This document shows positions 2,961 to 64,000 of a DNA stretch of 64,000 bases, piece after piece. A program made the translations under genes and the position numbers. The stretch covers positions 24,096,412 to 24,160,411 of the forward strand of contig NC_092675.1 of NCBI RefSeq assembly GCF_964355755.1, in the 5' to 3' direction. Each line of letters starts with the position of its first letter. Position 1 is the first letter of the stretch. A model generated the notes under the pieces. It did not search any database and was not told the DNA's origin. It was given only the letters and a program-made list of their open reading frames with translations. The DNA comes from Antedon mediterranea. Lineage: Eukaryota; Echinodermata; Crinoidea; Comatulida; Antedonidae.

Positions 2961-5900
2961 ATGTTTTCGGCATTTCCCAAAATATTTCATCAGTGGATAG
3001 GCATACACGTTATAATGGGCACTATAAATACTTGCATTGTTATAACAATGCTGATTCCATTTATTAGTGGTAGGTAATTCAATTTTTTTGTTAGTTGATA
3101 TTTTATTTAATATGAAAGGAAGGCAAAATGAATGAATTGGATTTATCCAGAGAAGAGGGAAATTACAATGTTTGTCCGCACTATTCCCTGGTTTTATCTA
3201 ATCGAAATTGTTGATTATTTCATATATTTATTTTCTTTTATAATAAAAGTGAATGAAAATGTAGTAAACACACATTTGTTGGTGATGAAGTGAGTTATAG
3301 GCCTTAAATGTTGAACATATTCGCAGCCTTCTTGGCTGGTCAATTCAATATTGGCCATTTTCATTGTCGTTTATTAGGCATTATTTTACATCTATAGGCC
3401 TACTTTGTTTTTATTTCAATTAAAATATTTATTGGACATAAAGTCCAGACCAACTTGTTGTTCTTACCTGGGGCCGATTGTAGGGTCGTGTGGCATGAAT
3501 GTCAGCACTAACATTCTTCCATTCATTCGTAGGCCTACATTTATATGCAATGCAACGTTTTTAGTCGCTTGGACGCGACTCTATAGTTCACTATGTCGGT
3601 CGGTCGGTCTGTCGGTCTGTCTGTCGGTCCGGTATCACTATGCGTTTTTAGCACGCGACTTATGGCTATTGGCCTTGTTCTTTATATTCCAGAGTCTTTG
3701 GTAAAGGCAGAGAAACGTTATTAATTACATTTTTAAAAAAATCTTTTTAAAAATCAATGTTTACAATGTTTACAACTATAACAGGTCAATTTGAAGGAGA
3801 TGTTCGATTAATGCCGGAAGAATCAGACTATAACTTTGTACAAGTTTACCACGACAGCCAATGGGGAGCAGTATGCAGTGGTCAACAGTGGGATAGGAAC
3901 GACGGTGACGTCATTTGCCGACAGTTGGGTTAGTATAATGTTAACTTGTTAATTTAAATGTCCTAGTTATATCTTTCTTAAATAGATGTGTTGATATACC
4001 TTCATTATGTAAAATATTGTAATTAACAATGATATATAGATATTAGGCTTTTATAAATTAAATATATTTACTTTCAGTATTACCTTTGTATTATGCCCTT
4101 ACAACTCGTACACTTTATCATTTAGATGATATTGTATTGTCTGTATTATTTATTATTGAAATCAAAATCATAGTAAAAACTGAATTGGATATTTTTCACA
4201 ATGTATATAATGCATGAAAGCAATAAAATACATATTAATAAAAAAAAAATCATTAAACATCAATAAAATATACACATATGTCGGATTGGTGACACGTATA
4301 AATAACCGTATCGTAATTTGTTTATAATATGTTCCAATAATAAAATTAAGATTTTACTGTACTAAATATGACGATGATGATTATTGAAATTCTCTACCAT
4401 CAGCATAGTAATGAATAATACACTTTAAGTAGGCTTATTGGTGCAATAATCGCAGTGGATTATTCTAAGCTGGTCAACAATGACGAACTGTTACCGCAGA
4501 TAATACCGTAAATATACAACTGGCCTATGGTGTGCTTTGGTTTGCACAAATCTCAACTTATTCCACTATGAAAATTGTTCACAATGTAAAAATGAAATTT
4601 TACCCTAACAATAACTTTCATTCAATACATAAGCAAGAATGCTGCGGGGTCTAAATTAACACACAACCGTACGAGAATCGAGTGAAAATAAACTTTAGTA
4701 AATCAGACTATCTATCCTCATCATCAAATAATGTTTTAAATAGTCCCAGCTCCCAGCACGTGCACTTACTTTTTTATTCAGGTCGCAGAGAGGTAAAATT
4801 GACTACAAGACATCGTTTCTAGGACAAGAAACCATAATGGAGGAAGATGTATTTTAGTAAATTAATGTTATGCTATTTCTATCTATGTCATTGTGACCCT
4901 TCTATAAATTTACTTTAGGACTAGGTAGAGCTCGGTACGTATTCACAGCATATGGACGAGACAGTAACTCAGTGTACAATAGTGTCAACGTAAGTCAAGG
5001 GGAGCCCATCTGGTTGGCTGATCTACAATGTAATGGTAACGAAGATCGGGTAGCTGAATGCGAAAGACCAATTGAGTGGGGTTCACGCTCTCCAATATGC
5101 TACCGTGCTGGAATTGAATGCTCAAAAGCTGGTGAGTTATGGTATACAATAGAAACTCATTTCAATATTGTTTATATAGAAGTAAAGAAGGTTTGATGAA
5201 ACTACTTAATCGGAGAATTTATTCAAAACAAACATTTGACCATGGTTCAGAGATTTACAATATAAACCAACTAACATAGAAATCTGCTTCATATACGCAG
5301 CATATTTAACTATAATCATATACCGGTATACTTTTGCATTATTTAGCTGTAATACATTTTATCACTCTATTTAATCTTCTAGAAACGTTAAGTCGTTTTT
5401 TTTTTAATATTTGAATTTTTTTTCTTTGAGATGATATATATTTTTTTAAACAACATCATTTAATTCAACATTCAATGTCCTGTGAATCATACTCACGAAT
5501 TCAAAAATATTTTTGTTTATTCTTCAAGCTGTAATTGCACAATATATTCTAGAGATTAATATACTTTTGCTTCATGAGGACAATTGTCCGCAATGAGATC
5601 AACTCATGAGTCATCGACCAGTGTATTGTATACATAACTATTGTTGTTATATTATATGCAAGTCAGATATAAATTTTAATCCACTTACAGTGTTCAATCA
5701 AGAGATTTAAAATATTTTGGAAACAAAGTAGTATTGAAAGGTTTTTAGGAATTTCTTCTATTTTTTAGGAACAATTATAAATACTATACAATTAGGCCTA
5801 CATCTTACGTAAAAAACATTGTAGAAATGTAGGCCTATGTTGTTATTTTCAATAAACATAATTATTGCTTTACCAACAGCGAAACCTAAGCATTTGTTGG

Positions 5901-8829
5901 TTGTGTCAAATCAAATATTGATTAGATGACCCTTAATTTTATTATAACATTTCTTAATAATATTTTAAACATTGTTTCTTATATCTCTTGGTTAATAACA
6001 CTATTTATTAAAACATATATTTATTTGTTGTGCTTCCAGAGAGCGAAAGTTACAGATACATTGGTTGTTACAACGATAACCTTGGTGGTGAGCCCTTGTT
6101 GAAGGGGTATGGATGCAATGTGAACAAAGACCCTAGATGCCATGAATTCGGGTGTCTTAACAGATGCGTTAACAGCCTGATGACAGTAGAGCTATGTGCC
6201 AACATTTGCTGTGATGAATTCAAATATTTTGGACTTGAATTTCGCAACGAGTGTTATTGCGGGCAAACAAATGTTTCGTATTACATGTATGGCCAGTCAT
6301 CTGATGACAACTGCGTTGCTCCATGCAATGGAAACTCCTCCCAGAATTGTGGGAGTAATCAAGAGATAAGCCTATACGAATGTGGTCCCAGTAAGTAACA
6401 CATCCGCCTATTTCGGGAATTAGAATTATTTATTTGTGATGCGGGCCTACATACCTTCATATTAAGAAGAAGGAAATAAGAAAATTACAATAAGGAGCTG
6501 TAATTTAACAACTCGACGACCAGATCTTGAGGATGTCTTTCTGCAAATCCTCTAAAAATACGAGCATGCGCGCGCAGAATTACTTTTTTTAATCAACAAA
6601 GCTCCCTAACGTATGTAACCTTCACCCTTTCCTAGAAACGGTACACATGGACATTCAAATAACAGTTTTATAAATATATTATTTGAAAAAAAAAATATTA
6701 TTAATAATGAAATAGAAAATAAAATGTATTAAAATGTTTGTATTTTGTATTATTATTATTTTTTAGCTTTAATGCCAGATATACTTGAGGAAACTAAGGT
6801 TAGTGATGCCACGCTTCCGCCATTATGGGGAAGTTCACCATCCAATAACGGACACTTCTTAAAACCGATAAGTAAGTTATTTTTCTTTTCATATATTACA
6901 CAAACTTCTCCATTTTCTAAAGTAAATTGTATAGTCCGAACGGGCGCATAAAAGGTAATCCATAAAGATAGTTTGTTTATAGTGGATATGGACTTAATTG
7001 TCATCCTGTAATTAAGCTAAATGTACACCAGCTGTGTTAATATTTTATTTTATTTCAAATCCTAATCTAGTTTTCTTGATGTGTATTGAGGTCAGATGGA
7101 AGTCTGCTTACATAATGTTAATACTTCGCTTTGCATGTTTTTTTATTTTTTTGTTTGTAAAGCATAATTATTAATCATCTTGTTTGTTTCTCTTTTAAAA
7201 TAGTTATGTACCTAATTATTGGTGGCGTAATTGGTATTGCTATAATGATTATAATTGTCTATGCTGTTTACATGAGGTAATTATAGTGTAATTTCCAGGT
7301 ACTTTAAAAAGAAATTATACCACATTGTCTTAGTAGTGGCACTGTGGCTTGCTGGTTGTTGTCAACTATGTGGCTAGACTAAAATTCTGTTATGGTTTTT
7401 TAATGGCGTTTTGATTTTGGTCCAGCTCAATTATACGTTTTACTGAAATGCTTATCTTTTTACCAATATTAAGTCGAATGATCATCTAGAACCACAATCT
7501 ACCCTAACCGAATTATGTATTTCCTGTTGGATGGTGTGTGAAAGCATGTCATGTCAATGTCATGATTTCCGGACATGTTTAATGTCGATCTTTAAAGTTA
7601 CGGGTAACATAGGCTTACATATAAATAAAATTATACATGACTTATGTTACCCAAAATATTAAGATTCCAGAAATGTATACCTTTCTGCTGATTTCTCAAA
7701 AGTCACTCATGTTTGTGCTGAAATTACATTTCATGTTACTCATTGAATTTAAAATACAACATAATTGTTAAATACTTTAATGTTGGTAGTATAATATAGA
7801 ATAACATTCATATTTTTTGTTATATCTGGAAATAGGAAATCAAATCAATCCCATATGCGGCAAATTGGTAAGTATATTTTATTTAAAGATATTGAAGTAT
7901 ACCATAAACATTGTGTGTTTATATGGAATATTATCAGAATGTGTAGAATAGGATCATTTGTAGCTACATACCTTTCAATGGATTGTTTGGTAAAGATTAG
8001 TCTAGAAATAGTAAAGGTACAGTGGTCCAGAATTGAGATCTTAGTTTTGACGTTATACTGCTAACAGACAAACACACAAACACAAATTAAAGACATAAAA
8101 TAAGAATATAACCTCTTTGGTTGAGGTAATAAAGCCACGGTATTATGGAATAACATGAGAACGTTTGTTTAAATTTCCAAGGAGGTATATCGATAACTTA
8201 CAACTTTCCATTAATCACACTATTTCGTTTTAGGTGATATATCGATATATTGCGAACCAGATCACATTCAACTACCAAATGGCACAGGAAATGTTGAAAA
8301 GTACCTGGAAGCAGAATACAATTTTATATCCGAGAGGCAAATTATAGAAGAAAAAGAGCACATGTATAAAGCGACATTACTTCCAAATGGCGCTATAGCA
8401 CCTTCAATCGTTAGGACTTCAGGGAGCGAGCCCAATGCTGAAGAGGAAGGAGCAATTGGATACGCCTCAGTTGCTGCTGACTGCAAAGATGACGAATATT
8501 GTGTACCAATTATTCCAGCTAAAACTGTTGTGTGCAAAGAAAAGAAACCAGTAGCACCACCCCGACAGTCATCTCTAGAAAAAGGACAAAGGCACACAGC
8601 AAGCAACGACCCATTGTATGCTCAACCTAAAAAACTGTTAGTAGGTTTACCAAAGAAAACGGACAGTAAAATCGAATACTACGCAACTTCTGATGTAGTA
8701 ACGAACGCAGATGAGAATGAAGACATGAGGGATTACCGATATATGTCTTCATTAACGGATACTGGGTACACAAAACTGGATGATCAGGGAAGAGTCGTGA
8801 ATGAGGAGTACGCGCATATTAAGGACTGA
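2961..8829 (+). CDS. SRCR-WSC single-pass receptor with tyrosine-rich cytoplasmic tail
   Basis: Predicted type I membrane protein of 540 residues. Exons: 2961-3069, 3785-3928, 4919-5131, 6040-6390, 6767-6871, 7204-7276, 7836-7867, 8234-8829; every junction is AG/GT and the frame is continuous to TGA. Residues 1-36 form a hydrophobic signal; an internal ATG at 3015 would give a tighter 18-residue leader. Residues about 40-155 are an SRCR domain with six cysteines (group A pattern). Residues 156-272 are a WSC domain (starts YIGCYND, contains ECYCG). A 35-residue stalk, one TM helix (about 308-330) and a 210-residue tail follow. The tail has about 14 tyrosines, including IGYASV (ITIM-like), YCVP and YAQP (YxxP), YRYM (YxxM), GYTKL and EYAHI, plus PVAPPR, a class II SH3 ligand. 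SRCR and WSC suggest glycan or microbial ligand binding; signalling through SH2 adaptors is inferred. I know no named orthologue. Confidence 0.88.
3563..3660 (+). mobile_element. Internally deleted MITE (98 bp) with GTCGGTCGGT core
   Basis: This lies in intron 1 of the SRCR-WSC gene. Its ends are AGTCGCTTG and the inverted CACGCGACT. About 90 bp matches, in reverse orientation, the right part of the 589-bp element at 46062-46650, including the GGTCGGTCGGTCTGTCGGTC run. The middle of the longer element is missing, as in deletion derivatives of DNA transposons. Confidence 0.75.
3785..5131 (+). other. SRCR domain exons (2 and 3)
   Basis: Two exons (3785-3928, 4919-5131) split the SRCR domain after VICRQLG, a usual intron site in this family. 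The order VRL, WGAVC, WD, VICRQLG, C(LQC), C(AEC), C(PIC), C(IEC) matches SRCR. Both introns are phase 1, so the domain is a shuffle-ready cassette. Confidence 0.9.
6040..6390 (+). other. WSC domain exon
   Basis: A single 351-nt phase 1-1 exon encodes a cysteine-rich WSC module of about 117 residues. It has the hallmark YIGCYNDN start, a CANICC/FGLEF centre and ECYCG. The module is known as a putative carbohydrate-binding domain in yeast cell-wall sensors and animal polycystin-1 and kremen. Confidence 0.88.
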
Positions 8830-11800
8830 GATGATCAGATAAATTAATGTCTGCTATCACAGACACTGTTATTTGCTTGTATACACCCATTCACAAATAA
8901 TTTCATGTCACACTTGCATCATATTTTACAAGTAATTTACATATTCAGATACTGTATGTTAACTATAAGTATAGCCATATCCTTTCTACTTGCCAACGGC
9001 TCTGTGGACTGAAAACGTGAGAAATGCACAAAGCTCGTTAAAGTTTTATTGTACACACCAGAACAAAGTTGGTTGATGATGAAACCTAACAACTTTAAAC
9101 AAAGATAAAATGTTTGTTGTTGCGTGCTATATGGTAGAAATGTATAGGCATAGACATCGAAATATGTCAAACATTATTTACAACGCAAATTATTATAGAA
9201 ACCAAAACCTGAATGAATTGATTAATGAAGATATATACTACTAGTTCTTCTTTGGCTCAGTCAGCAAATAAGACTTAAGGGTTTAAGCAAAATTTTGATT
9301 ATGATTATGAAGATGCTACTTTGTGTTTGAATTCTAGTTTTACCAGTCTTCAGTTATCACGTATGATAGCCTTAGTTGCATATTTACACAATACACACAT
9401 TATATTTGTATAACGTTATAAGGAGTGGAATGTATGTATGACTACAATTTCGGTTATTATTTTATATCTGTAAGCCCATTTTATTTATGTCTTATGTTCT
9501 CTATATTACTATTCACATTGTTTTACATTTTTTATATTATATTTGTAAAGTTTACACAATTATATCATTTTCATTATTTTTTAATTACTATTTTTAATGT
9601 GTATACTGTACCAATAAATACCATAACAAATATTGATATATTGTTTCTGTCAACTTTTAAAAGTATTATAATTAATAAAAGTAGCATTATTCTCAAGATA
9701 AATACGTTGAAATTATTATTATTAATAATCAATGTCAATTAATAATATAATATTATCAATTACAATAACATCATAAACATATTTGATTTAAAATAGGCCT
9801 ACACTATCACAACTTCACAAAAATACAAGCACATGACCGGTCTTAATTCTATCGTAGGTTTGAACAGCAAATACTATAGTCTATACTCACAATGAAAGGA
9901 CTACTGTATTTATAAAGTCCTTGCGTCGTCGATACTTAAACTCTAGTACTCGTATTTGTTTTCAATGTTCTGTTTTGTATGTACTAAAGGTTCCCATTCC
10001 TCCTGTCCAATCTCTTAATTTTCTTCGAAACCTCAAGCTAAGGTAAGATAGAGTAAGAATCATATTATAGTTTTCTTTTTAGAGTAGCCTACACACTGCA
10101 TTGTAATGAATCAAATGTTTGAAAACAAAAATATTGTTAAAAAATAATTGCTAAATATGCTCTCAAAAATAGATCATATCAAACTATTAGTATTGGGTAT
10201 GTAACATACGACGCCTAAACGTAAACTATATTATTTTATGATTACTTTTATGAATATGCAATTTAATAGCTTATAATACCCAATTCCTTGTTTGCTTCGA
10301 TTATTTTCTTATTGTTTGTGTTGTGACGTCTATAGTCTACGCAATGACTTATTTGCATATTTTCCACCTGTGGGTTGGTTGAAATAGACGAGGTATTTGT
10401 ACGTACAGGGAGTTCTGGGCAGGCGGTTGTGCACAACGAATGAATAAAGTGAACGGTACCGAGTAATGTGTTGCGTTGTGTTTCTATGTAAATGGTTTAA
10501 CGAGTAGGCTACATTTTCCCCGATGCAAGCTCGATGCTATATCTACACTGTATATAGCAGACACGACACTGTGTGCTTATTGTTATTGCAGACACGATGC
10601 CGTACTATACGACAATAGGCCGAATTTCTCTGTAAGATCTTATGATGTTTTAATGAAACTGTTCCTGATGTGAGCTGACTGATTAACATTTTATGGTTAT
10701 CATTTAGGAAGTGAACTACAATATTAAGTCTTCAAGACGTATGCGTCAATCACTAATTTGTTACACAGGAGACTTTCTGACAAAAGACAAACCGCACAAA
10801 CTACTATATATACAATGAGCAATAACAAATTACTAAATTCCCAAGTATACTGTTCATGTTATTTGTCTTGTACCGGATGACAAGAATGATCAAATTGCAA
10901 ATAGATGGAAGTCGACATGTTTCAAAACTTAATCTCTGGGTTATTTTTCGATTGTTGGAATAATGCAGATATTTGCTTTCTCAAACAATAACAGACGCTA
11001 ATGACAACCATGTGGAAACAATCGTAATCATATACTTCCTTTTTGTAGAGAAAACAAGATAAACTAGTATAGTCAATAGTTATATGATAGCGCCCCCATA
11101 TCTAATTACGATCCCCTTGATGATTCATAAGTGGATTATGAGTAGTGGTATCTGGATATTTCCTTCCGAACTTACCTTAATCAAAGACTCATCCAAAATA
11201 ATTATAGATTATTCCATGGAAGTATAAATACCTCCATGATTATTCCATTGTAAACTATATAATATTTCTGTTCTGTACACATAAAAAAACAAAACAAAAC
11301 AAGAGCACACTAACTATAATAATTTGCATCTATTAAAGACTAAAAAATGATACCATCCAGTGAGGCCAGACAATTGAGTAGTTATGAGAGTTTACCATTA
11401 ACAGTTTCGTTTAAAATCGTATTCATCTTAAACGATTAAAACACAATTCATTGTAAATTATAGAATTTCGGAGAAAAAATCCGAATCAGACGTTTATACG
11501 GCATATAAACGATCTATAAGACAGCTATAAATAACACTTAGTAAGGAAACAATACACACAACTACTTACAGTGTCTTTCATAGTGTCTTATTTTGGTTAT
11601 GCGGTCCGTGACCTATTACACAGTTAATCTCAAATAATCTCTAATTAATTAACAAAAACCAAATCCGTACTTTAAAATCGATCTTAAAGTGTTTTCCAAG
11701 AACGCAATCGACTTAAAGTTGCTGACTCATAATCTGTTTATACCAAACGAGAGTACACTGCCAATTTTAAATACATTTATTTATAAATCTAAAATTACTA

Positions 11801-12224
11801 AAGATATGTTTGTCTTCTTGAACAAATATTATTAATAATAATACTGTATGCCTATGTATTGTTACATAATAGATATTCAATTAGACAAAAAAATAGATTT
11901 AAAATATTTCGATTTTGTCTATACATAATAAATCAATATATATGTGTTGTTTTCGGAAATGAATGAACTAAAAACTACAAAATTGCACATTGATTTTATT
12001 TAATTTTATTTTTCATCTTTTCGTGGGACATCTAGAAAAGGAGAAAATCAGTCGCTCAACAAACAATTGTACAAACATATGTTCTAATCCGCTTGACCTC
12101 AAAGGGATGTAATATTCGAACACCGGAATTTGCATTGAAAGCCGAGTGATACATAAATCCTCCGAAGCATAATATATATATCTACTCGAGATGGGGCGTA
12201 TTTACTTCCACTTCAGTAGGAATT
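8830..12224. other. Intergenic region between the two receptor genes
   Basis: About 3.4 kb of AT-rich DNA. Six-frame ORFs here (for example 9425-9742) are low-complexity Ile/Phe/Tyr-rich and show no domain. I see no tRNA or recognisable transposon. It presumably holds the 3' UTR of the upstream receptor and the promoter of the lectin receptor. Confidence 0.5.
12093..12181 (+). promoter_or_regulatory. Candidate promoter of the lectin receptor gene
   Basis: A TATA-like run (CATAATATATATATC, 12167-12181) lies about 45 bp before the start codon at 12225. A nuclear-receptor-like motif, TTGACCTCAAAGGGATG, lies at about 12093. If the TATA run is used, the 5' leader is very short. This is read from sequence only. 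Confidence 0.3.
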
Positions 12225-15200
12225 ATGATAGGATATCGGATAACTCTTTTCTTGCTCTGTATTGTTGAAGGTAAGAGAGAATTGAATTGTCGAATTATAG
12301 GCTAATTGAAAAATATAAATACTTTAAGTTTGTTATTTAAAATATGGGGTATAAATCTCTCTTTTGTCTGTCAATTTTTTCGTAAAATAACTCTTTTTTA
12401 AAGTGTTTATTTTGAATAAATCCTCAGAAATTGGGTACAAGGAGATACGTTTTTTTTTTATAGATTCACAATAATCATTTGAGCATTCTTATTTTTATTT
12501 TGTAGCATAAAAATCAACTTTATTTGTACCTTAAAACACATTCCCACTATTCGTATTACACAAAACGTATATGTATAATATTAACAATTTTATTTTGAAT
12601 TAGGTCAGTTTGATGATTCAAAATTGTTCGTTAGTTTCTATAAAAGTTAGTTTTTCATATCAAGAGTACACTCCATGGTAATTTAAGTTACTTTTGTCAC
12701 ACCCTACATTCATTTATCAATCAAAAGCCATTAAGTAAACAAATAGCTTAACAGAGTGGTATGGTAAACATATTTCCAACTTAGTATTAGAGAATTATAA
12801 AGCCATCTACGATATACGATTGTGATTTTAATATCGCGTTTCCCTATTCCAAAATTCGAATTTATTCAATTCATTTTAACAGACCTGTTGTAAGTTATTA
12901 GTACTATTATTTGACACCTCATATTTTATTTTTTAATATATATATATTATTAAATTACTATTATTACATTCATATGAGACTCAATTTTGTTTTCTTACAT
13001 TACTGAAACAATTGTGGAATCAAGTATGTTTGTAAAGTACACTTATTCTAAATTTTTGAATGGAAATGTGCCCACTAATTCATGCCAGGACATACATACA
13101 TTCTATATAGATACATTCTATGAAGATCTTAAATGTACGTAGATGCAGCATTATAAAATACATTATCAAAATAATAAATGTGGTAATAACGTTCATTTTC
13201 TTTAATAGTACTAAGCTGCAATGTTGGACGGATTAATATCAACAATTCATGCTATGATTTTGTCAAGCCAGAACAAAACCTTACTTGGATGGACGCTCTC
13301 AAAGGCTGTATAGACTCCGGTGGAAGTTTAGCCAGTTTTGAAACAGATTCGGAGCAAGATGCGGTGAGGAATCACCGATATGCACTATATAAAACCGAAG
13401 AGAAGTTTTATATTGGTCTATATAGTCAAGGAATTACTCCGATGTGGGTGTCTGGGGAATATTTGTCGTCAGACAGATGGAGCTTAAAATCAGCACCACA
13501 AGGAGATCATTCGTGCGAAGGAACTGTATTGGACATTTCAGATAATAATTGGCTTCGAGTAATGTGTACAGTTCGATACCACAACATTGGATATATATGC
13601 GAGTACGGTAAATACATATCTTGTAAATTATTTTGAACTTAATTAAAATCTAAAAGCAATCGCAAGGCAACATGATTGGAAATTACATACGATGAAACGG
13701 GTAGATTCTAAGAAAACAAAATTGAGACTGATATGAATGGAATTATTTATTTCCTACAATAGATAAATATGATTGATTCAAATTATTGAAACAGTGCTCA
13801 TATTGGGACATGATCTTAAAATCACGTCGAAAATACCTCATCGGCGAAAGTTCCGTATTGTTAGTGAATGAAAAAATGTATCTGACGGGATTAAATAATA
13901 AGGAATTATTTTAATGTGGTCATTTCCAATCATGTTAAATTTTAATTAAGTACTATACAAACTGGAAACAAGACTGAGAATGCTGTTTAATTAAAATTGT
14001 TCTTATTTGATATAATTGTTACAGGCCTATACTTTTTTTGTATGATAGTTTTCTAATTATTTCAGGAACACCGGCTTTAAAATCCACACATCTTCCTGTG
14101 TTATACCCGACAAAACAACTAACTACAGTTGAGGAAACACAGAAAACAAAAAATGACTTAACTGGTAAATATTCACTTTATGCTAATTTGAGAATAATGT
14201 TAAATACAACAACATATATTGAGATATATTGTATGACCAATGTCACTCTTAGTCAGAGTTTCACAATACATAATAAAAAAGAAATGACACATTACCGTAT
14301 GCTTTAACAAATTAAATTTTTTTACTCAATATTACAGCGCTTTGTCCCTCGGATCGTTTTGTTCATGGGAATTCCTGTTACGAGTTTGTAGAAGATCCTA
14401 ACACCTACAATTGGACATACGCTGTCAAATCCTGCTCATCAAAAGGCGGTCAACTTGTAAGTTTGGAAACTGAAGAAGAAAACGATGCATTAATCAACAG
14501 TCTTAAAACAAACTACCTTTATAAAGAGCTATATATTGGTCTTAGACTCCCAAAAAATGAAGAAAACGCCAAATGGTTATCAGGAGCACCTCTTACGTAC
14601 AATCGTCATGGAGCGGCAGCATCAACTTTCAGATGTACTACAATATTTGCCTTCCAGTCAGTATGGTTTTCTAGACCTTGTGATGCCGGGATACCCGTTG
14701 GACACGGGTACATATGCGAATATACTAGAGGTGTGGTGTCATTTATTTATCTTACTATGTAATGATATCAATGATAATCAATAATAGTAACAATACATTT
14801 ATATTTTCAAGACTAAGATACGAAAATCTGTTTTTGCGAAATATTCATTTAAATTATTTAAAAAGCTTGTTATAGTTAATTAGTTCTCTTAAATCAATGA
14901 TGTTTTGCAATCTGATACTTCAAATGAAATTTAAATTGATTACCACGTAATAGGATTTTAATATTGACATTTTGTTATCTTTTTTCAGAATCTATTACTA
15001 ACCCGGTAACTTCAGGTAAGTTCATGATCTATCGATAAAAATATCATCAAATAACATTCAAAATCATTATATTCAGTTGTGTGTATTTTGGTATTAGGAA
15101 ATGCTGAAATGCTTTATTTGCTTATACAATAGAAATTCTTCTTAAACAAAATATTCCTTTTATTTCTAGCTATAAATTCGTAAAATATTTTAACACATTA

Positions 15201-16972
15201 TTTTGACACTAGATAACTATTTGAATACTTCAATTTTCATTTTTTCAAGATTGAAAGATAATCAAAACATAGTTGAAAATTATTGTTTAATTTTTTGTTT
15301 TATTCTAATTCTTTAATTACAGCAACATCAGGAAACAATAATAAATAGTAAACTTACAGTACAGATAAATAATGATACACGTATTATACTGTACCGTATC
15401 CATATATGGTAATGCAACTTAAATAATATCGAGCATTTGTTTTGGCAATATTAGATGTCGGGCATTCCGATTAGCTCATGACTTACCGTATTTGACTCAC
15501 AATTGTGTCATCATTTACACCATATTTATTGAAATAATGTTTTCAGGAAATTCTGACTTTACTGCTAACGTCACAAGTATACAGCAAATTAAGAAAGGTG
15601 ACGACAACACATTGAATATGGGTAGGCCTAAGGTTTTCTCATGTTAATCATTGTATTTTTTTGTTACCAGAGTAGGCCTACAAAGCGATAAACTATGAAT
15701 TGCAAATATGTAAATTGTTCACATGTGGCATATTCGAAACTACAGTAGCTTCTGATTCCTCGTCATACATTAAAACAGTGTCTATGGGAGGGATTTTGTT
15801 ACCTACTTTTGTAAGTAATTTACGTTTCAACTATGCAATGAATCACCAGTATATTCTTGATATATTTGTAATTATAAGGTAATTCTACCATCAATACAAT
15901 GTATGTCTTGTTTTACAGGTGTTTTAATTTCGGTTATTATTGTATTGTTTATCCTGGTATTGGTGGTAATTGCTCTGTTATGGAGGAGGTAAGTATCAAT
16001 CTAAGGTATAAAGCATGAACAAGAAGACATTCTTATTTTTAGCAGCCTTGTTTGTCGCCCTCTCCAACCATGGAGATATAGAAGTAAAGAATTAAAAATG
16101 TTCATATTTTCGTTTTGTATTATGTTTTATTTTTTGGTTTATCAAATAGAAACATTCAAGGTTGATAATTGTCTTTTAGGAGCAAGATCAGAAAGCAACA
16201 TATTACGTCACCTCAGGAAATACCATCGACAGCGTTTACAGGCGGAACAAATAAAGACATTGCCAAAGAAGGGGTTTCAGTGCCAGTTTATATGCAACTT
16301 GAAACTTCAGATATTATTAGAGAAACACCAAACACTGGCTTAGAAATTAACATCAATCCAAGATGCAAATCAGTAAATCAAGTGAATCAGGAGTTAGAGG
16401 GGAGATATTACGAAATTCAACAATTACATCCAACAGAAACAGATCTCCCTAAAGAAAGATTCAGTAGTAAAAATATTTCTAGAGCAAATACTGTTTTTCG
16501 ATTGAGTGGTAGGAAGAAATTTGAAGACAAGAAGCAAAGTCAAACAGAAATTAAAAGCAATCGACCTAAAACTTGTAAGCCTCAGTATATTGCAGGACAA
16601 GAAAGAACATGCTACGCACACTCGAACTTGGGCTTCACTTCCAACACTTGTACCTTACCAAAGCAAAGTTCATGTTCTGTAGAGAGTGAACATTTATACA
16701 ACAAACCAGTGTATGACGTTTGCGGACCTGCGCAATGTGGTGCTGAACAGATATATACAATTCCGTGCACTGTAACACTTTCCAGTAAACAACATTCTAC
16801 CAACATTGAAACTGAGCATTATTATTCTTCAATGACTGATCCAGATAATGAACAGTCTGTCCAATCAAATGGAGTCTATTTTGTTTTGGAAAAGCCAGAC
16901 AATGTTGAGAAAGCAGATTATGGAACATTAAGCAAAGAAGTTGAAAATGAAATTTACGAAAGCGGTTCCTAA
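12225..16972 (+). CDS. Tandem C-type lectin transmembrane receptor with tyrosine-rich tail
   Basis: Predicted type I receptor of 633 residues. Exons: 12225-12270, 13209-13607, 14066-14164, 14338-14730, 14989-15015, 15547-15621, 15919-15988, 16180-16972; the frame is continuous to TAA. Residues 1-15 are the signal core. Residues 16-148 and 182-312 are C-type lectin domains (WMDALKGC, FYIGL, MWVSGE, GYICEY; then WTYAVKSC, LYIGL, KWLSGA, GYICEY). Thr/Ser-rich linkers lie between them and before the TM helix (about 347-368). Neither domain has EPN/QPD or WND, so calcium-dependent sugar binding is unlikely. The 264-residue tail has 13 tyrosines, including VYMQL, YNKP, YDVC, YTIP, YSSM, YFVL and YGTL. 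The start at 12225 was chosen because the upstream ATG at 12191 runs into a stop. The donor after CTLD2 (GTGTGG) is weak. Known relatives are single-CTLD layilin/chondrolectin-type receptors; no exact orthologue is recognised. Confidence 0.87.
13209..13607 (+). other. C-type lectin domain 1 exon
   Basis: A 399-nt phase 1-1 exon encodes the whole first CTLD (residues 16-148). The core WIGL equivalent is FYIGL. The WND position reads NNWLRVMC, so the calcium site is not conserved. Confidence 0.9.
14338..14730 (+). other. C-type lectin domain 2 exon
   Basis: A 393-nt phase 1-1 exon encodes the second CTLD (residues 182-312). It has the same layout as the first but diverged sequence. The WND position reads VWFSRPC. 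The two exons look like an old duplication. Confidence 0.88.
15323..15348 (+). other. Candidate alternative terminal exon giving a soluble lectin
   Basis: After a pyrimidine-rich tract and ATTACAG, an in-phase reading adds eight residues (ATSGNNNK) and then TAG. Its first codons resemble the start of the next constitutive exon at 15547. If spliced to 15015 it would end the protein before the TM helix and release a two-CTLD ectodomain. No transcript supports it yet. Confidence 0.3.
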
Positions 16973-17668: not shown

Positions 17669-20600
17669 AACTGGTTACTATAGCACAATTGACATGCGCA
17701 GAACCTATTATTCGTCTCTACGCATATTTATTATGCAATAGTAACCATTTATGTCAAAACTGGTTACTATAGCACAATTGACATGCGCAGAACCCATTTT
17801 TCGTCTCTGCGCATGTTTATTATGCTATAGTAATCTTTTATGTCAAAAACTGGTTACTATAGCACAATTGACATGCGCAGAACCTATTATTCGTCTCTGC
17901 GCATATTTATTATGCAATAGTAACCATTTATGGCAAAACTGGTTACTATAGCACAATTGACATGCGCAGAACCCATTATTCGTCTCTGCGCAAGTTTATT
18001 ATGCTATAGTAATCATTTATGTCAGAAACTGGTTACTATAGCACAATTGACATGCACAGAACCCATTATTCCTCTCTGCGCATATTTATTATGCAATATT
18101 AACCCTTTATGTCAAAAAATAAAAGGGTCGAAAATCGGCCATTTTTCGAAAAATTCCCTGTACTATAGTACAGGGATTTTTTCAAGAAATGGCCAATTTT
18201 CGACCTTTTTATTTTTCGATAAAACTGGTTACTATAGCACAATTAACATGCTTAGAACCCAGTAGTCGTCTCTGCGCATGTTTATTATGCTATAGTAACT
18301 ATTTATGTCAAAACTGGTTACTATAGCACAATAAACATGCGCAGAACCTATTATTCGTCTCTGCGCATGTTTATTATGCAATAGTAACCATTTATGTCAA
18401 AAAATAAAAAGTGTCGAAAATCGGCTATTTTTCGAAAATTTCCCTGTACTATAGTACAGGGATTTCTTTAAAAAATTACCAATTTTCGACCTTTTTATTT
18501 TTCAATAAAACTGGTTACTATAGCACAATAAACATGCGCAGAACACATTAGTCGACTCTGCGCATGTTTATTATGCTATAGAAACCATTTATGTCAAAAA
18601 CTGGTTACTATAGCACAATTGACATGCGCAGAACCTATTATTCGTCTCTGCGCATGTTTATTAGGCAATAGTAACCATTTATGTCAAAAAATAAAAGCGT
18701 CGAAAATCGGCCACTTTTCGAAAAATTCCCTGTACTATAGTACAGGGATTTTTTCAAGAAATGGCCAATTTTCGACCTTTTTATTTTTCGATAAAACTGG
18801 TTACTATAGCACAATTAAAATGCGTAGAACCCATTAGTCGACTCTGCGCATGTTTATTATGCTATAGTAACCATTTATGTCAAAAACTGGTTACTATAGC
18901 ACAATTGACATGCGCAGAACCTATTATTCGTCTCTGCGCATGTTTATTATGCAATAGTAACCATTTATGTCAAAAAATAAAAAGGGTCGAAAATCGGCTA
19001 TTTTTCGAAAATTTCTCTGTACTATAATACAGGGATTTTTTCAAAAAATGACCAATTTTCGACCTTTTTATTTTTCGATAAAACTGGTTACTATAGCACA
19101 ATTAAAATGCGCAGAACCCATTAGTCGACTATAGTAACTATTTATGTCAAAACTGGTTACTATAGCACAATAAACATGCGCAGAACCCATTAGTCGACTC
19201 TGCGCATGTTTATTATGCTATAGTAACTATTCATGTCAAAACTGGTTACTATAGCACAATAAACATGCGCAGAACCTATTATTAGTCTCTGCGCATGTTT
19301 ATTATGCAATAGTAACCATTTATGTCAAAAAATAAAAAGTGTCGAAAATCGGCTATTTTTCGAAAATTTCCCTGTACTTAGTACAGGGATTTCTTTAAAA
19401 AATTACCAATTTTCGACCTTTTTATTTTTCGATAAAAATGGTTACTATAGCACAATTAAAATGCGTAGAACCCATTAGTCGACTCTGCGCATGTTTATTA
19501 TGCTATAGTAACCATTTATGTCAAAAACTGGTTACTATAGCACAATTGACATGCGCAGAACCTATTATTCGTCTCTGCGCATGTTTATTATGCAATAGTA
19601 ACCATTTATGTCAAAAAATAAAAAGGGTCGAAAATCGGCTATTTTTCGAAAATTTCTCTGTACTATAATACAGGGATTTTTTCAAAAAATGACCAATTTT
19701 CGACCTTTTTATTTTTCGATAAAACTGGTTACTATAGCACAATTAAAATGCGCAGAACCCATTAGTCGACTATAGTAACTATTTATGTCAAAACTGGTTA
19801 CTATAGCACAATAAACATGCGCAGAACCTATTATTCGTCTCTGCGCATGTTTATTATGCAATAGTAACCATTTATGTCAAAAAATAAAAAGTGTCGAAAA
19901 TCGGCTATTTTTCGAAAATTTCCCTGTACTATAGTACAGGGATTTTTTCAAAAAATTACCAATTTTCGACCTTTTTATTTTTCAATAAAACTGGTTACTA
20001 TAGCACAATAAACATGCGCAGAACCCATTAGTCGACTCTGCGCATGTTTATTATGCTATAGTAACTATTTATGTCAAAACTGGTTACTATAGCACAATAA
20101 ACATGCGCAGAACCTATTATTAGTCTCTGCGCATGTTTATTATGCAATAGTAACCATTTATGTCAAAAAATAAAAAGTGTCGAAAATCGGCTATTTTTCG
20201 AAAATTTCCCTGTACTATAGTACAGGGATTTCTTTAAAAAATGACCATTTTTCGACCTTTTTATTTTTCGATAAAACTGGTTACTATAGCACAATTAACA
20301 TGCGCAGAACCCATTAGTTGACTCTGCGCATGTTTATTATGCAATAGTAACCATTTATGTCGAAAACTGGTTACTATAGCACAATTGACAATCGCAGAAC
20401 CCATTATTAGTCTCTGCGCATGTTTATTATGCAATAGTAACCATTTATGTCAAAAAATAAAAAGTGTCGAAAATCGGCTATTTTTCGAAAATTTCCCTGT
20501 ACTATAGTACAGGGATTTCTTTAAAAAATTACCAATTTTCGACCTTTTTATTTTTCAATAAAACTGGTTACTATAGCACAATAAACATGCGCAGAACACA

Positions 20601-21605
20601 TTAGTCGACTCTGCGCATGTTTATTATGCTATAGAAACCATTTATGTCAAAAACTGGTTACTATAGCACAATTGACATGCGCAGAACCTATTATTCGTCT
20701 CTGCGCATGTTTATTATGCAATAGTAACCATTTATGTCAAAAAATAAAAGCGTCGAAAATCGGACATTTTTCGAAAAATTCCCTGTACTATAGTACAGGG
20801 ATTTTTTCAAGAAATGGCCAATTTTCGACCTTTTTATTTTTCGATAAAACTGGTTACTATAGCACAATTAAAATGCGTAGAACCCATTAGTCGACTCTGC
20901 GCATGTTTATTATGCTATAGTAACCATTTATGTCAAAACTGGTTACTATAGCACAATAAACATGCGCAGAACCTATTATTCGTCTCTGCGCATGTTTATT
21001 ATGCAATAGTAACCATTTATGTCAAAAAATAAAAGGGTCGAAAATTGGCTTTTTTTTTCGAAAATTTCCCCGTAGGCTTACTATAGTGCTACAGGGATTT
21101 TTTCAAGAAATGGCCAATTTTCGACCTTTTTATTTTTCGATAAAACTGGTTACTATAGCACAATTAAAATGCGCAGAACCCATTAGTCGACTCTGCGCAT
21201 GTTTATTATGCTATAGTAACTATTTATGTCAAAACTGGTTACTATAGCACAATAAACATGCGCAGAACCTATTATTAGTCTCTGCGCATGTTTATTATGC
21301 AATAGTAACCATTTATGTCAAAAAATAAAAAGTGTCGAAAATCGGCTATTTTTCGAAAATTTCCCTGTACTATAGTAAAGGGATTTCTTAAAAAAATGAC
21401 CATTTTTCGACCTTTTTATTTTTAGATAAAACTGGTTACTATAGCACAATTAACATGCGCAGAACCCATTAGTCGACTCTGCGCATGTTTATTATGCTAT
21501 AGTAACCATTTATGTCGAAAACTGGTTACTATAGCACAATTGACATTCGCAGAACCCATTATTCGTCTCTGCGCATGTTTATTATGCAATAGTAACCATT
21601 TATGT
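17669..21605. repeat. Two-component palindromic satellite array (~3.9 kb)
   Basis: About 30 copies of unit A (~90 bp) and 12 copies of unit B (~105 bp). Unit A runs from TGGTTACTATAGCAC to AATAGTAACCA and is itself an inverted repeat: 31-nt arms ending in TGCGCAGA/TCTGCGCA around a 14-nt loop. Unit B is a longer inverted repeat with arms of about 47 nt (ATAAAAGGGTCGAAAATC and its complement) centred on CCCTGTACTATAGTACAGGG. The array starts with five A units. It then becomes a higher-order B-A-A repeat of about 285 bp, with B centres near 18170, 18465, 18740, 19033, 19385, 19672, 19937, 20225, 20513, 20798, 21098 and 21375. Several A units are truncated. Confidence 0.95.
18798..19790. repeat. 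Block duplication inside the satellite
   Basis: The stretch from about 18798 to 19140 is almost identical to 19440-19790. Both contain the same truncated A unit (ATTAGTCGACTATAGTAACT at 19120 and 19763), so a multi-unit block was copied after the truncation arose. Confidence 0.8.
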
Positions 21606-54439: not shown

Positions 54440-57400
54440 CTATTTGTAGTAATTCCTATGGCGGCGATCAACCCATCTTTCTTCATCTATATCACCTCTA
54501 TTGTCGTACACATGCTGTTGGAAAGAAAGAAACACATCAAATTATCAAACAGTGAATTAATAAGGCATTGTGACTAATTCTTTTAATATTATTATTGCAT
54601 TATTTTTGCTAACATTCATTGTGTTATTAGTCACAGCCAATTACATTCACACAAATGTATTGAATTCCAAAAAAGCAAATTATAATAAACTCACCATGCG
54701 TTCCTCCTGTCCAGTGGCAACGTATGGCCGACGGAATTCAGTATGAGGTAGAGGTCGGTTATATCCAATGACCTATAGTTAAAGACAATGGATAAAAAAC
54801 TATGATGCTATGCCTACTCTTTTCTTTTTGGTGCAACGTTTACATAAAATGATATGCTCTTACTAAAAGTATAATTATATTAATTTCATAGAAAAACATA
54901 ACTTACATCGGCTGGCGAGTTTAACATATGATGACGTATATTTCGGGGGACGTCTGAGTTAGATGAAGTAGTAAGACTGTCACTATCCAGGTGTCCAAAA
55001 TGATAAGGCATTGCATTACCATAAATCATTGATTTCTTCAGACGTTGCATTCTTCTGTTGTACATGAACAATAGACCGCCGACAATGCAGCAAATCAATG
55101 TAAAAACAAGGATTCCAACACCCAAACCAATCGCAAATATAGTTATGTAATCTGTAATGAATTATTATTATTATTTGCATTCATCTTAACAAAGAGGATG
55201 TAATAATTTAGGCCTACATGTACTCTCGAAATATTATTTAACTGAAAACATATTGTGCAATCACATTTTAATCTAATGTGGGGGTCCCGGTTTATGGATG
55301 CTTATACTCATTACTTTAGGGCCTTCAGTACAGCATAGTACAATGTTATAAAACGACAACATAACCTTAACCCCTAACCCCTAACCCTAACCCTAATGTT
55401 ATAAAACGACAACATAATGTCTTACATGTTGAAAATCGCATACTACATAAAACATTTATATTATTCTTGTTTTGGGAATATGATGATATTCAATTATATT
55501 ATTCTGACAGAATTACTTGATATGCCTAAAAACAAAGAAACAATTAAGCCTGAAATAGTTATTACATACCACTTTCATTTTGACATTTATCACCTTCGTA
55601 ACCAGATGAACATTTGCAAATAGGAGGTTGTACACTGTCAGAACATGTCCCTCCATTAGAACAGTAATCAGAGGTACATAGCAACACTAAAGAAATATAT
55701 GTTAATTGATTTATTTAGCAATTACATCTATGGGTCAATAATGTAAATACGGTGTTTTTTTATGTTTGACAACATTTTAAAAGTAAATGTTCTTTTGTTT
55801 AAATAAAACTCATCTTAAAGATAACTTCTTAGTATGGTTTGATTGACCCCAACTTCATTATCGACTGACATAAAAATTCATTAGTAAACAACATGATTCT
55901 ACATTATAAATAAAAAAATAGGAACCCATTTTAAAAAGGAATTTATCTTATCTTAACTTACTTTCTGTTACTGTTATGGCTGCAGCATCAATAACAAACT
56001 CGGTATCCGGCAACTGATCATTGTCGATTCCTTCTGAAAGAACTGTTTGAATTTCTTCAGAAGATGTGGTGTCTTCTTGGTATACTAGGTCAACGTTGGC
56101 AATAATGCTACCAGACTCGAAGCTTGAAACCGAGCATGTGCGACTGTTACGGGATATTGTACTCTGATCAACTATATTTGTTACCTATGAATAAGAAAAT
56201 AATTATTAGAATACTGGTCAAGCATGGATGAAATGTTACTTCTTCCGTGAATCAAAAGTACAATTTGACAAGAACTTGAACAACACATTAAAACGACACA
56301 CAACTAACGAAAAGAACTGAACGAGAAACTGTTTCGGTTTATGAAATATCTAAAATAAATTGATTACTACAAAAACAAAATGTATACTAACAATAACAGT
56401 TAATGTTGAAATCTCTCATAATTTGTGATATAAATTTATTTTATTTAAGAATTTTTGTTTCAATAATATTCTTAAAACAAATTTTTATAAAGTAAATAGA
56501 ATTTCAATTCAATTCAATTCACATTTATTTACTCATCGTTTATAAATACAGTTTCATAGCATAAATGATGGCAAGGATCCTGCATAGAGAAGTTTACACT
56601 TCTGTTTTCGCAGGACCCTTTTACATAAAAGACATAAAACAATAAACACAACATAATAGATACAAAATAAAAAAAAAACATTCCTATATACATTTTAGAG
56701 TTGTTCATCATCAAAAAGCGATACTGTTTTTTTAACATGATTATTTGTACTATGTGTGTATACTCGCACACACCAACACAAATGCATAATATATGCATCT
56801 ATATTTTATGAGTAAAGCATTTTAAGTTCTGTAATTCGATAAAATGTCTCTTTTTACATATTTTTTTAGTATTTTATAATTTTTGTTAACAATATCTAAG
56901 TGATTTCTACAGAGCTCGTTCCATAGTTTCGGTCCGTGAATACTGATAAAATGTTGACCAGACGTTAACCTAGAGTATGGTTGTTTTACGCTACAAATAT
57001 TTCGAAGATTATGGGTAGTATTTTCGTTTCTTTTGAATATCATTTGGATTCGTCTGGGTAAAACATTGCTTTTAATCTGGGCCATGAAACCTAGGACGGT
57101 AACTCTGTTGATATCTTGTATGTTAAGAATATTTAATTGCTTAAACAGTGGCTCAGAATGTTGCCATGGCTTTTTAAATAAAATTATTCTAGCAGCCTTT
57201 TTCTGGAGTTTAAGAAGGGATTCTAGTGTACTATCATATGTACTGCCCCAAATAATGTTTCCATACTGAAGGTGCGGTAGAATTAATGTATTATACAAAT
57301 TTGTTAAAATATAATTAGGAAAAAAATGTCTAGTTTTTATCAATATTCCAATAGACCTAGCGGTTTTTTTGCTAATAAGCCTTATATGATTTTTCCAGCA

Positions 57401-60400
57401 AAGGTTCTCATTTATTACAACCCCAAGAAATGTTACATTTTTTTGTTGTTCTAAAGTAATGTTATTCATTTTCAATTCAATGTTGGTTGTAATAATACGC
57501 CTTTGGGCAGTTTTAAAGATTACGTAATTTGTTTTGCTGGTGTTTAATAAAAGTTTATTAGCTTTGAACCACATATTAATTCTATCTAGTTCCACATTCA
57601 TAGTGTTTGCCAATGCGTTCAGGTTATTTCCACACTTGAATCCTGTTGTATCATCGGCAAAGCTAATTAATTCAATTTGTGTACTTGAGTTACATATATC
57701 GTTTACATATACAAGAAACAACAAAGGTCCCAAAACGGACCCTTGTGGAACACCAATACTAGTCTAGTCTGGTAATTAAAACCAAGTTGGAGACAAGTAT
57801 TCGTGAGCCTACTCATGAATATGTAGAATAATGATTGTTATAATAGGACAAATATCCTATAATATATATTTAATTAACTAACGTCTGAATGCTCAAATTA
57901 CAAACTTTGTTTTAAAATTGGTACACTTACCGAATTACAAATTTGTTGTTCATACAACATGTAAAGTGCAGAATTTGGGTCACCTAAATCATCAACATAT
58001 TCTGCATCTGAACTTCCAATACTGATAATGCGTATGGAAATAGAATATGTTGTACCTGAAAGAAATCGATGATTGGAATGACATAATTATACAAAGTTTG
58101 TAATTGTAGTTTTTTCGTCTGGGAGTTGAGTAATTAGATGTTTTGCCCTACTCTGACGTCATTTGTACTTTATACCAAGTACATTTGAGTAGGGCAAAAC
58201 ATCTAATTACTCAACTCCCTGACGAAAAAACTACAATTACAATCCTGTTGGTGCAGTACCTGCTGCTTACTTGGGCTCGAATCTAACCACTAGTCATCAG
58301 CGCAAGCTCGGTGGTCTAGAGGTATGAACGCCAGGCTAGTGATCTGGAGGTCATGGGTTCGAGTCCCATCCGAGAACTACTAGTATTCTCAAATGTACTT
58401 AGTATAAAGTACAAATTACGTCAGAGTAGGGTAAAACATCTAATTATATACAAAGTTATTTCTCAGGTAGCGGGAGTGATTTGTGTGGGGTGTTATAATG
58501 GTTGGCGGTGATAAAATACAACCTCATTGGCGGAGGTAACACACAAACCTTCTGTGGCTGTAGTAGTTTCAATTTTTGGCGTAGTTTGCTGTCCTGGTGC
58601 TGTAGTTTGTACTTGTGGTACTGTAGTCCTCACATCATCAGGTGCTGTGGTCTTCACTTCATCAGGTGCTGTAGTCTTCACTTCATCAGGTGCTGTGGTC
58701 TTTACCTCGGCAGGTGCTGTAGTCTTCACTTCATTGGGTGCTGTAGTCTTCACTTCATCAGGTGCTGTAGTCTTCACTTCATCAGGTGCTGTAGTCTTCA
58801 CTTCATCAGGTGCTGTAGTCTTCACTTCATCAGGTGCTGTGGTCTTCACTTCATCAGGTGCTGTAGTCTTCACTTCATCAGGTGCTGTGGTCTTCACTTC
58901 ATCAGGTGCTGTGGTCTTCACTTCATCAGGTGCTGTAGTCTTTACTTCATCAGGTGCTGTAGTCTTCACTTCATCAGGTGCTGTAGTCTTCACTTCGGCA
59001 GGTGCTGTAGTCTTCACTTCATCAGGTGCTGTGGTCTTCACTTCATCAGGTGCGGTGGTCGTCACTTCATCAGGTACTGTGGTCTTCACTTCATCAGGTG
59101 CTGTAGTCTTCACTTCATCAGGTGCTGTAGTCTTTACTTCATCAGGTGCTGTAGTCTTTACTTCATCAGGTGCTGTAGTTTGTACTAGCGGTGCTGTAGT
59201 CTGTATATCTGGAGGTGTGGTTTTTGCATCTGGTGTTGTAGTTGACTCTCCTGTCATGGTAGCATCTTGTGTTGTAGTAAATGTGGATTCAGTTGAAGGT
59301 TGAATTGTGGATACAACTGAAACGGAAAACAATATGATTGACATACAAATTAAATATAATATTATTAACTTGCATTATTTTTGTGTATATATGCTAAATT
59401 AAAATATTTTTTTTTCTGGAATTGAGGTCACTGCTGAGAACTACAACCTATTGGCAGACTTACCAGGCAACATTGCAATCAAAGATGCTGTATCTATAGA
59501 ACTGTCAGGTGGTACTTGGCTATTATCCGCACCAGACAAACCTCCGTAGAATGCTGCAGCAATGTCGTAAGAGTCAAGGTCAGTTGATGCAGGAAGATCA
59601 AGTCTGAAATTAACTTCTTGAAACAAAGACACTGTTCTGTACGTATGTATGTTTACTTGCAATATTGAGCTACTGATGCTTGACATCTCAAAAATAGCAA
59701 ACACCTAGTAAAAATATGAAATTGACACTATAGAGATGTACTCAAAATATTAGTAAAATGTCCAAGTTGCTGGTTTTATAAGCAGACATTTGTGAACAAA
59801 CACACAATATAGGCCTACAAGTACCATTTTTTCTTTTTTGGAAATTACCACATTGTATCGAAATGAAAGTATGCATAATAAACATGTAACAGTGTCCATT
59901 GCAACACCACTATTCTATGGCAGTCAGCATTTTAACTAGGTTGGTTAGCAGATCATGGAGATTAAAACTATAACTGAATTCAAAATTGTGTATGATACTA
60001 AGCAATTATAATACAAAACGTTATTATAAATCAACGACCTCCGATAAAGTACAGATTAGTAATAATAATAATAAAACTATAAAAACATATATACATACAT
60101 CAGCTGCAAGTTGTGTCTGTATATCAATCGAATTCAGAATAGTGGGCATGGCACTGACAACGACTCCCTTAATGTCCGTGAAATTGATTCCTAGGTACAT
60201 CGTTAATGATTCTTTAAGAAATGAAAAACCATTTGTTTTTGTTGTGTTAATCTTTCGGCTTATGACTAAAAAACACTGCGTAATGTTTTATATAAATAAA
60301 TAATTAATTCATCAACTATTAATTTGATAAAATTGTTAAATTTTAGTAGATCTGGAATAGCATAGAAAAAATTACCTATACAGGTATCTTGTACTTCTAC

Positions 60401-63913: not shown

Positions 63914-64000
63914 CTGAAAATAAACAGACAAAAATAAATTGCAACTCCGGGTTCTTTTCAACTATTAATCTAAGAGTGATATTCTTCTAGGAGGCGAAAC

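Follow-up and report, generated by a model that had tools for sequence, protein, structure and literature searches.

Two adjacent candidate receptors with ITAM-like C termini, and a Syk-type kinase gene, in the crinoid Antedon mediterranea

Two neighbouring receptor genes are described here from a 64,000-nucleotide stretch of the genome of the crinoid Antedon mediterranea (assembly GCF_964355755.1, contig NC_092675.1, positions 24,096,412 to 24,160,411, forward strand), which we call the window and number from its first letter. Gene 1 (2961-8829, + strand) has eight exons and encodes a predicted protein of 540 amino acids with an SRCR domain, a WSC domain, a transmembrane (TM) segment and a tail. 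Gene 2 (12225-16972, + strand), likewise of eight exons, encodes a predicted protein of 633 amino acids with two C-type lectin-like domains (CTLDs), a TM segment and a tail. Each tail ends in a pair of tyrosine motifs resembling an immunoreceptor tyrosine-based activation motif (ITAM), and the same genome carries a gene for a Syk-type kinase. These features suggest, at a probability of roughly one half, that both genes encode single-chain type I recognition receptors coupled to Src and Syk kinases by way of the C-terminal ITAM-like motif.

The positions of the paired motifs are as follows.

8767..8820, + strand: gene 1 ITAM-like motif, YTKL-x10-YAHI (YxxL-x10-YxxI), C terminus of the tail
16877..16930, + strand: gene 2 ITAM-like motif, YFVL-x10-YGTL (YxxL-x10-YxxL), C terminus of the tail

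The tails were scanned with Yxx[LI]-x(6-12)-Yxx[LI], a spacing range that represents a wide definition of the ITAM. Both tails fall within it: each contains exactly one match, starting in its last 31 residues, and the ten-residue spacing (x10) is equal in the two. Among 20,000 composition shuffles, a motif beginning within the final 60 residues arose by chance at a frequency of 0.0155 for gene 1 and 0.0064 for gene 2, while 200,000 shuffles gave a joint chance of 1.7e-4 for both tails, or 3.5e-5 when equal spacing was demanded. As a control, open reading frames (ORFs) of at least 100 amino acids were collected from 43 other loci of the genome, and in 3 of 204 the last 60 residues held the motif. 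For the window the count is 2 of 30 such ORFs, and the two are exactly the tails of genes 1 and 2. The motif is present in none of the six other receptor tails that were modelled from this genome; in this comparison of eight tails, the ITAM-like C terminus thus distinguishes the window pair.

A separate locus (L041, C6:536,600-546,100) is predicted to encode a Syk-type kinase that carries two SH2 domains; genome-wide, 53 SH2 matches were found among the matches listed. The best matches of its first SH2 domain in the PDB are SYK and ZAP-70, with whole-chain E values of 6e-38 to 2e-33 that sum two SH2 stretches. The best single stretch scores 73.8 bits, while the runner-up family, SHP-2, reaches 48.7 bits among the best 60 of 221 matches. 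A second SH2 piece resembles, by eye, the C-terminal SH2 domain of Syk, and the kinase exons match the SYK query at 69, 64 and 52% identity. In a published survey, invertebrate Syk/Zap70 homologues have been tied, through their distribution with CARD-CC and Bcl10, to inferred ITAM-containing upstream receptors (PMC5978004).

The exon structures that carry these readings are listed below, beginning with gene 1.

2961..3069, + strand: gene 1 exon 1, start codon and signal peptide (hydrophobic N terminus by eye; a later in-frame ATG is possible too)
3785..3928, + strand: gene 1 exon 2, first half of the SRCR domain
4919..5131, + strand: gene 1 exon 3, second half of the SRCR domain, six Cys in total, group A-like
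6040..6390, + strand: gene 1 exon 4, WSC domain
6767..6871, + strand: gene 1 exon 5, stalk
7204..7276, + strand: gene 1 exon 6, TM exon of 73 nt, phase 1 to 2, Arg codon split AG/G
7836..7867, + strand: gene 1 exon 7, 32 nt, phase 2 to 1, required for the tail frame
8234..8829, + strand: gene 1 exon 8, last exon, 198 amino acids of tail
12225..12270, + strand: gene 2 exon 1, start codon and signal peptide
13209..13607, + strand: gene 2 exon 2, CTLD 1
14066..14164, + strand: gene 2 exon 3, linker
14338..14730, + strand: gene 2 exon 4, CTLD 2
14989..15015, + strand: gene 2 exon 5, stalk, 27 nt
15547..15621, + strand: gene 2 exon 6, stalk
15919..15988, + strand: gene 2 exon 7, TM exon of 70 nt, phase 1 to 2, Arg codon split AG/G
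16180..16972, + strand: gene 2 exon 8, last exon, 263 amino acids of tail

Both genes are real as read. All modelled junctions are AG/GT and the frames are intact, the start codons having been chosen by eye. An earlier note on this DNA had described two genes lying head to tail, with phase-1 ectodomains and TM exons of 73 and 70 nt that run from phase 1 to phase 2 with an Arg codon. The gene models bear this out: both genes lie on the + strand, and every ectodomain exon modelled beyond exon 1 begins and ends in phase 1. The same note assigned each tail to a single large last exon, which holds for gene 2 but not for gene 1, where it had overlooked the 32-nt exon 7. Owing to this exon, the last exons of the two genes enter in different phases (1 and 2, respectively). 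When the TM exon of gene 1 is joined directly to the last exon, the junction reads AGG and then TGA; judged from the frame, skipping exon 7 would yield a tail-less receptor. The Arg codon was considered as a family signature and rejected, since the splice consensus AG/G spells Arg at a phase-2 boundary. In any case a TM segment is usually followed by a basic residue, and across seven TM models of phase 1 to 2 the split codon is Arg in three and Ser in four.

Gene 1 matches the Pfam profiles SRCR (1.4e-15) and WSC (1.7e-9). Group A of the SRCR superfamily is defined by six cysteines and a domain spread over two exons, and gene 1 has the profile match, the six cysteines (counted by eye) and the two-exon split. 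By sequence, its nearest solved relative is CD163 (1.5e-45, taken over the repeated SRCR domains of CD163), with CD6 at 2.2e-6, and the nearest for the WSC part is Kremen 1 (6.8e-7). Gene 2 belongs to the CTLD superfamily by its match to Lectin_C (PF00059, 1.6e-17, two stretches); its nearest solved relative by sequence is the PLA2 receptor (4.9e-22, three stretches), and CTLD 2 matches Mincle (6.5e-10) and NKR-P1A (5e-8). Its CTLD relatives elsewhere in the genome are weak, the best having an E value of 3e-5. A pattern scan found neither EPN/QPD nor WND, the sugar-binding motifs of classical calcium-dependent C-type lectins, in either CTLD of gene 2, and calcium-dependent sugar binding is therefore not expected.

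Counted from the end of the TM segment, the tails measure 210 amino acids in gene 1 and 265 in gene 2, each with 13 tyrosines. Besides the paired motif, gene 1 has three YxxP sites, one YxxM site and one motif (IGYASV) resembling an immunoreceptor tyrosine-based inhibition motif (ITIM), while gene 2 has two YxxP sites and one YxxM site. The earlier note had given the tails 13-14 tyrosines in YxxP, YxxM and YxxL/V contexts. Tyrosine enrichment was tried as a tail signature and discarded, since tails and ectodomains differ little: tyrosine makes up 6.2% of the gene 1 tail and 5.2% of its ectodomain, and for gene 2 the values are 4.9% and 5.8%, respectively.

The two tails do not appear to be the same module by sequence. 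The earlier note had proposed that ectodomains are shuffled onto a common signalling module, and had suggested aligning the tails as a check; the alignment gave no detectable homology (BLASTP E 1.4; Smith-Waterman with shuffles p 0.31 for whole tails and 0.32 for C-terminal parts). A collinear Y.SS[LM]TD stretch occurs in both. The note had named two observations that together would speak against its proposal, tails without detectable homology and a lack of further family members nearby; the first of these is what the alignment shows. A search of the 354-Mb genome with each tail returned self-matches only, plus hits at E 0.94 and 1.8 for gene 2. These empty searches are weak evidence because the method has limited sensitivity: when the genome was queried with part of the last exon of another receptor, L026 (164 of its 229 residues), the probably related tail of L012 was not among the matches listed. 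Within that sensitivity, a module shared by descent and shuffled between ectodomains is not supported by the tail comparison. Of the "same signalling chassis" proposed for the two genes, the TM-exon layout survives, but the tails show no detectable homology and the last-exon phases differ. As a functional idea, different ectodomains above tyrosine-based signalling tails are made more plausible by the equally spaced ITAM-like motifs and the Syk-type kinase gene.

For comparison, 40 loci of 5.8-6.2 kb each (L001-L040) were drawn from elsewhere in the genome, 16 from WSC matches, 16 from CTLD matches and 8 from SRCR matches. The choice was non-random and mostly favoured the strongest matches, those at the end of a cluster and the nearest relatives. 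The source matches were 34 for WSC, at least 154 for CTLD (150 of 530 candidates scored) and at least 150 for SRCR (150 of 408 candidates scored). Pairs of TM exon and tail were chosen by eye in a survey that covered all but the end of L030. Six pairs in five loci (L005, L007, L012 with two, L019 and L026) were modelled, and L011, L034 and L035 contributed a TM exon each; the remaining loci had no convincing pair, the CTLD relatives of gene 2 at L021, L022, L023, L024 and L025 among them. L005 and L007 combine WSC with exons that by eye are CUB-like (the donor in L005 being weak), L012 has WSC with a mucin stalk and a second TM-tail pair (L012b) for which no ectodomain was found, L019 has a CTLD, and L026 has WSC with sushi-like exons. 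ITIM-like motifs are present in L019 (SVYTEL) and L026 (SLYAKV).

The TM exon runs from phase 1 to phase 2 in five of these six non-kinase models (binomial p 0.018), the exception being L019 (1 to 1). When the TM exons of L011 (1 to 0), L034 (1 to 1) and L035 (1 to 0) are added, the count becomes five of nine (p 0.14). As a pattern beyond chance, the recurrence of these phases in further genes is weak. Tyrosine-tailed single-pass receptors with a TM exon of phase 1 to 2 are not rare in this genome. The tails of L012 (WSC-mucin) and L026 (WSC-sushi) align better than 399 of 400 shuffles, the best of 28 pairs, and have LY.[RK]VD.SKK in common; they are probably related. Tail sharing across partly different ectodomains may accordingly occur in this genome, while none is detectable with the window genes. 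Closer to the window, no further family member was seen, which is a weak test: in the 20 kb upstream (L042, L043) no SRCR, CTLD or WSC-like exon was recognized by eye among ORFs of at least 85 amino acids, a limit that SRCR half-exons escape, and no other WSC match of the 34 found genome-wide lies within 0.7 Mb.

Some of the surveyed loci have features of their own. In L012 (G000:C6:23349300-23355299), TM exons of 79 and 70 nt, both of phase 1 to 2, are each followed by their own tail with different tyrosine motifs after a single WSC-mucin ectodomain; there may be two genes here, or one gene with TM-tail cassettes used as alternatives. L011 (G000:C11:12997400-13003399) holds WSC and sushi-like exons and a TM exon of 122 nt (1 to 0); about 3 kb past the latter, an exon resembles by eye a piece of a tyrosine kinase, and the locus is possibly a WSC receptor tyrosine kinase. 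Its WSC domain is the closest paralogue of that of gene 1, at 36%. In L006, L009 and L014, WSC exons lie upstream of exons that by eye resemble seven-TM adhesion G-protein-coupled receptors. On G000:C6, three single-pass WSC receptors with tyrosine-containing tails are found within 1 Mb, at 23.12, 23.35 and 24.10 Mb. The matches listed for WSC, SRCR, CTLD, SH2 and kinase all lie on contigs C1-C11 of the 18 in the assembly; most echinoderms are reported to have 36-46 diploid chromosomes, and 11 pairs would suit a feather star. A COX1 probe had no match in the genome, a result of little weight.

If genes 1 and 2 act as Syk-coupled receptors, the following sequence of events may be proposed. As type I, single-pass proteins, gene 1 would display SRCR and WSC domains and gene 2 two CTLDs that lack the calcium-type sugar-binding motifs. 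Clustering by ligands could lead Src-family kinases to phosphorylate both tails, and the doubly phosphorylated YxxL-x10-Yxx[LI] would then be bound by the tandem SH2 domains of the Syk-type kinase. Such binding may produce an activating signal of a phagocytic or inflammatory kind, and an immune role of this sort would most likely be played on phagocytic or blood-type cells. The YxxP and YxxM sites upstream might pair with Crk/Nck- and PI3K-type adaptors, and the ITIM-like IGYASV of gene 1 would make mixed signalling possible. The likeness of the two tails would then probably reflect either functional convergence on one motif or a descent so old that the motif alone remains.

The chief alternative, which we regard as a serious possibility though a less probable one, is that genes 1 and 2 are unrelated adhesion or scavenging receptors with ordinary endocytosis or SH2-type motifs, the ITAM-like spacing being coincidental and Syk unused. 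YxxL/I motifs also serve as sorting signals. Several points weigh against Syk coupling, and a number of them fit coincidence well. Both tails, at x10, fall outside the strict ITAM spacing of 6-8 found in CD3zeta, FcRgamma and DAP12, which is also the vertebrate consensus reported (x6-8). The tails have no detectable homology to one another, no detectable homologues elsewhere, and hardly any tyrosine enrichment over their ectodomains (slight in gene 1, reversed in gene 2); the six other tails of similar genes carry no such motif. The ITAM-pair test was picked only after the tails had been inspected, and the paired motif in these two genes is known from the sequence of one genome alone. One invertebrate Syk, that of a schistosome, is reported to be without the conserved ITAM-binding sequence, and it has been proposed to work independently of ITAMs. 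Finally, the top-scoring matches of the SYK kinase search are other kinase loci with long exons and 37-42% identity; these outscore L041 because their exons are longer, and the Syk-type assignment rests in consequence on exon identity together with the SH2 pair. On the other side, a coincidence would have to accommodate the joint chance of both motifs and of their equal spacing, as well as the presence of a Syk-type kinase in the genome.

An unlikely explanation is that the genes are tandem duplicates of one receptor in which one ectodomain was replaced, the TM exon and C-terminal tail being of common descent. Their adjacency and same orientation, the near-equal length and identical phases of the TM exons, the equal ITAM-like spacing and the collinear Y.SS[LM]TD stretch all fit such a history, as does the apparent sharing of tail sequence between L012 and L026, WSC genes with otherwise different ectodomains. 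However, the local tail alignment is not significant, gene 1 has its extra 32-nt exon and a different last-exon phase, and TM exons with these phases are found in other genes too. A more elaborate version, in which ectodomains are exchanged over one ancestral ITAM cassette, SRCR-WSC and double-CTLD receptors feed one Syk pathway, and the frame-shifting 32-nt exon toggles gene 1 between signalling receptor and tail-less decoy, seems to us a long shot. That one or both genes are inactive or mis-modelled, as exons of a single larger gene or as pseudogenes, is very improbable: although the models derive from sequence with start codons picked by eye, each gene has its own signal peptide and stop codon, with intact frames and consensus splice sites throughout.

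The surroundings of the pair include a long tandem array (17669-21605, + strand; units of about 89 and 286 bp) directly after gene 2. On the minus strand, an EGF-domain protein is encoded at 54886-63986. Its EGF matches lie at 61410-61709 and 62125-62391, a mucin-like repeat of 24 bp occupies 58617-59179, and an exon at 54886-55161 is TM-like by eye; it is perhaps a third membrane protein of the window, of other layout. A reverse transcriptase frame (56822-57763, - strand; PF00078, 5.4e-11) lies inside this gene region.

Known receptors share parts of the proposed design. In mammals, coupling to Syk through ITAMs is typical of C-type lectin receptors. The class of Mincle, NKR-P1 and Dectin-1, to which gene 2 is likened by its CTLD match, consists of type II proteins with one CTLD that use an adaptor's ITAM or a half-ITAM (hemITAM), whereas gene 2 would be a type I protein that has two CTLDs and carries the motif itself. 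CD5, CD6 and WC1 place an SRCR ectodomain over a long tyrosine-bearing tail, as gene 1 does, but gene 1 differs in its Kremen-like WSC domain, its two-exon, six-cysteine SRCR domain and its ITAM-like motif. Draper, CED-1 and MEGF10 are described as single-chain type I receptors with an ITAM in their own tail, a design proposed here for the window genes. The ITAM of Draper-I, reported as YXXI-X11-YXXL, binds Shark, and that of MEGF10 binds Syk; the x11 spacing of Draper is near the x10 found here. In contrast, the ectodomains reported for this group are of EMI/EGF type rather than SRCR-WSC or CTLD, and the NPxY described in the tails of Draper and MEGF10 is absent from both window tails. The fester co-receptors (FcoR) of Botryllus likewise are invertebrate type I proteins with long tails, reported to bear ITIM, hemITAM or core Yxx[ILV] motifs. 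They differ in their Ig/sushi ectodomains, in their location in the polymorphic fuhc locus, and in having a hemITAM where the window genes have a paired motif.

Published accounts thus already describe invertebrate receptors whose tails bear ITAM, hemITAM or ITIM motifs, and they also place WSC domains inside SRCR-superfamily genes of the sea urchin (PMC10855680). For both reasons the earlier label of an "undescribed innate recognition system" was overstated. What would be new is that neighbouring genes join such ectodomains to a paired motif in cis. Such a combination was not found described in the open-licence literature, of which coverage was partial, and titles and abstract openings yielded no ITAM/Syk receptors of this type for echinoderms or sea urchins; neither result is proof of absence. 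A search for WSC, SRCR and transmembrane together was empty, which means little, as both domains are mentioned for sea urchin genes in PMC10855680.

In Draper-III a frameshift and an early stop codon are reported to remove the ITAM, which parallels the predicted outcome of exon 7 skipping in gene 1. If the exon-7 switch is used, gene 1 would offer a parallel to this isoform. With two concrete candidates that carry the motif in the receptor chain, and a Syk-type kinase in the same genome, the inference of ancient ITAM receptors (PMC5978004) would become directly testable in a crinoid.

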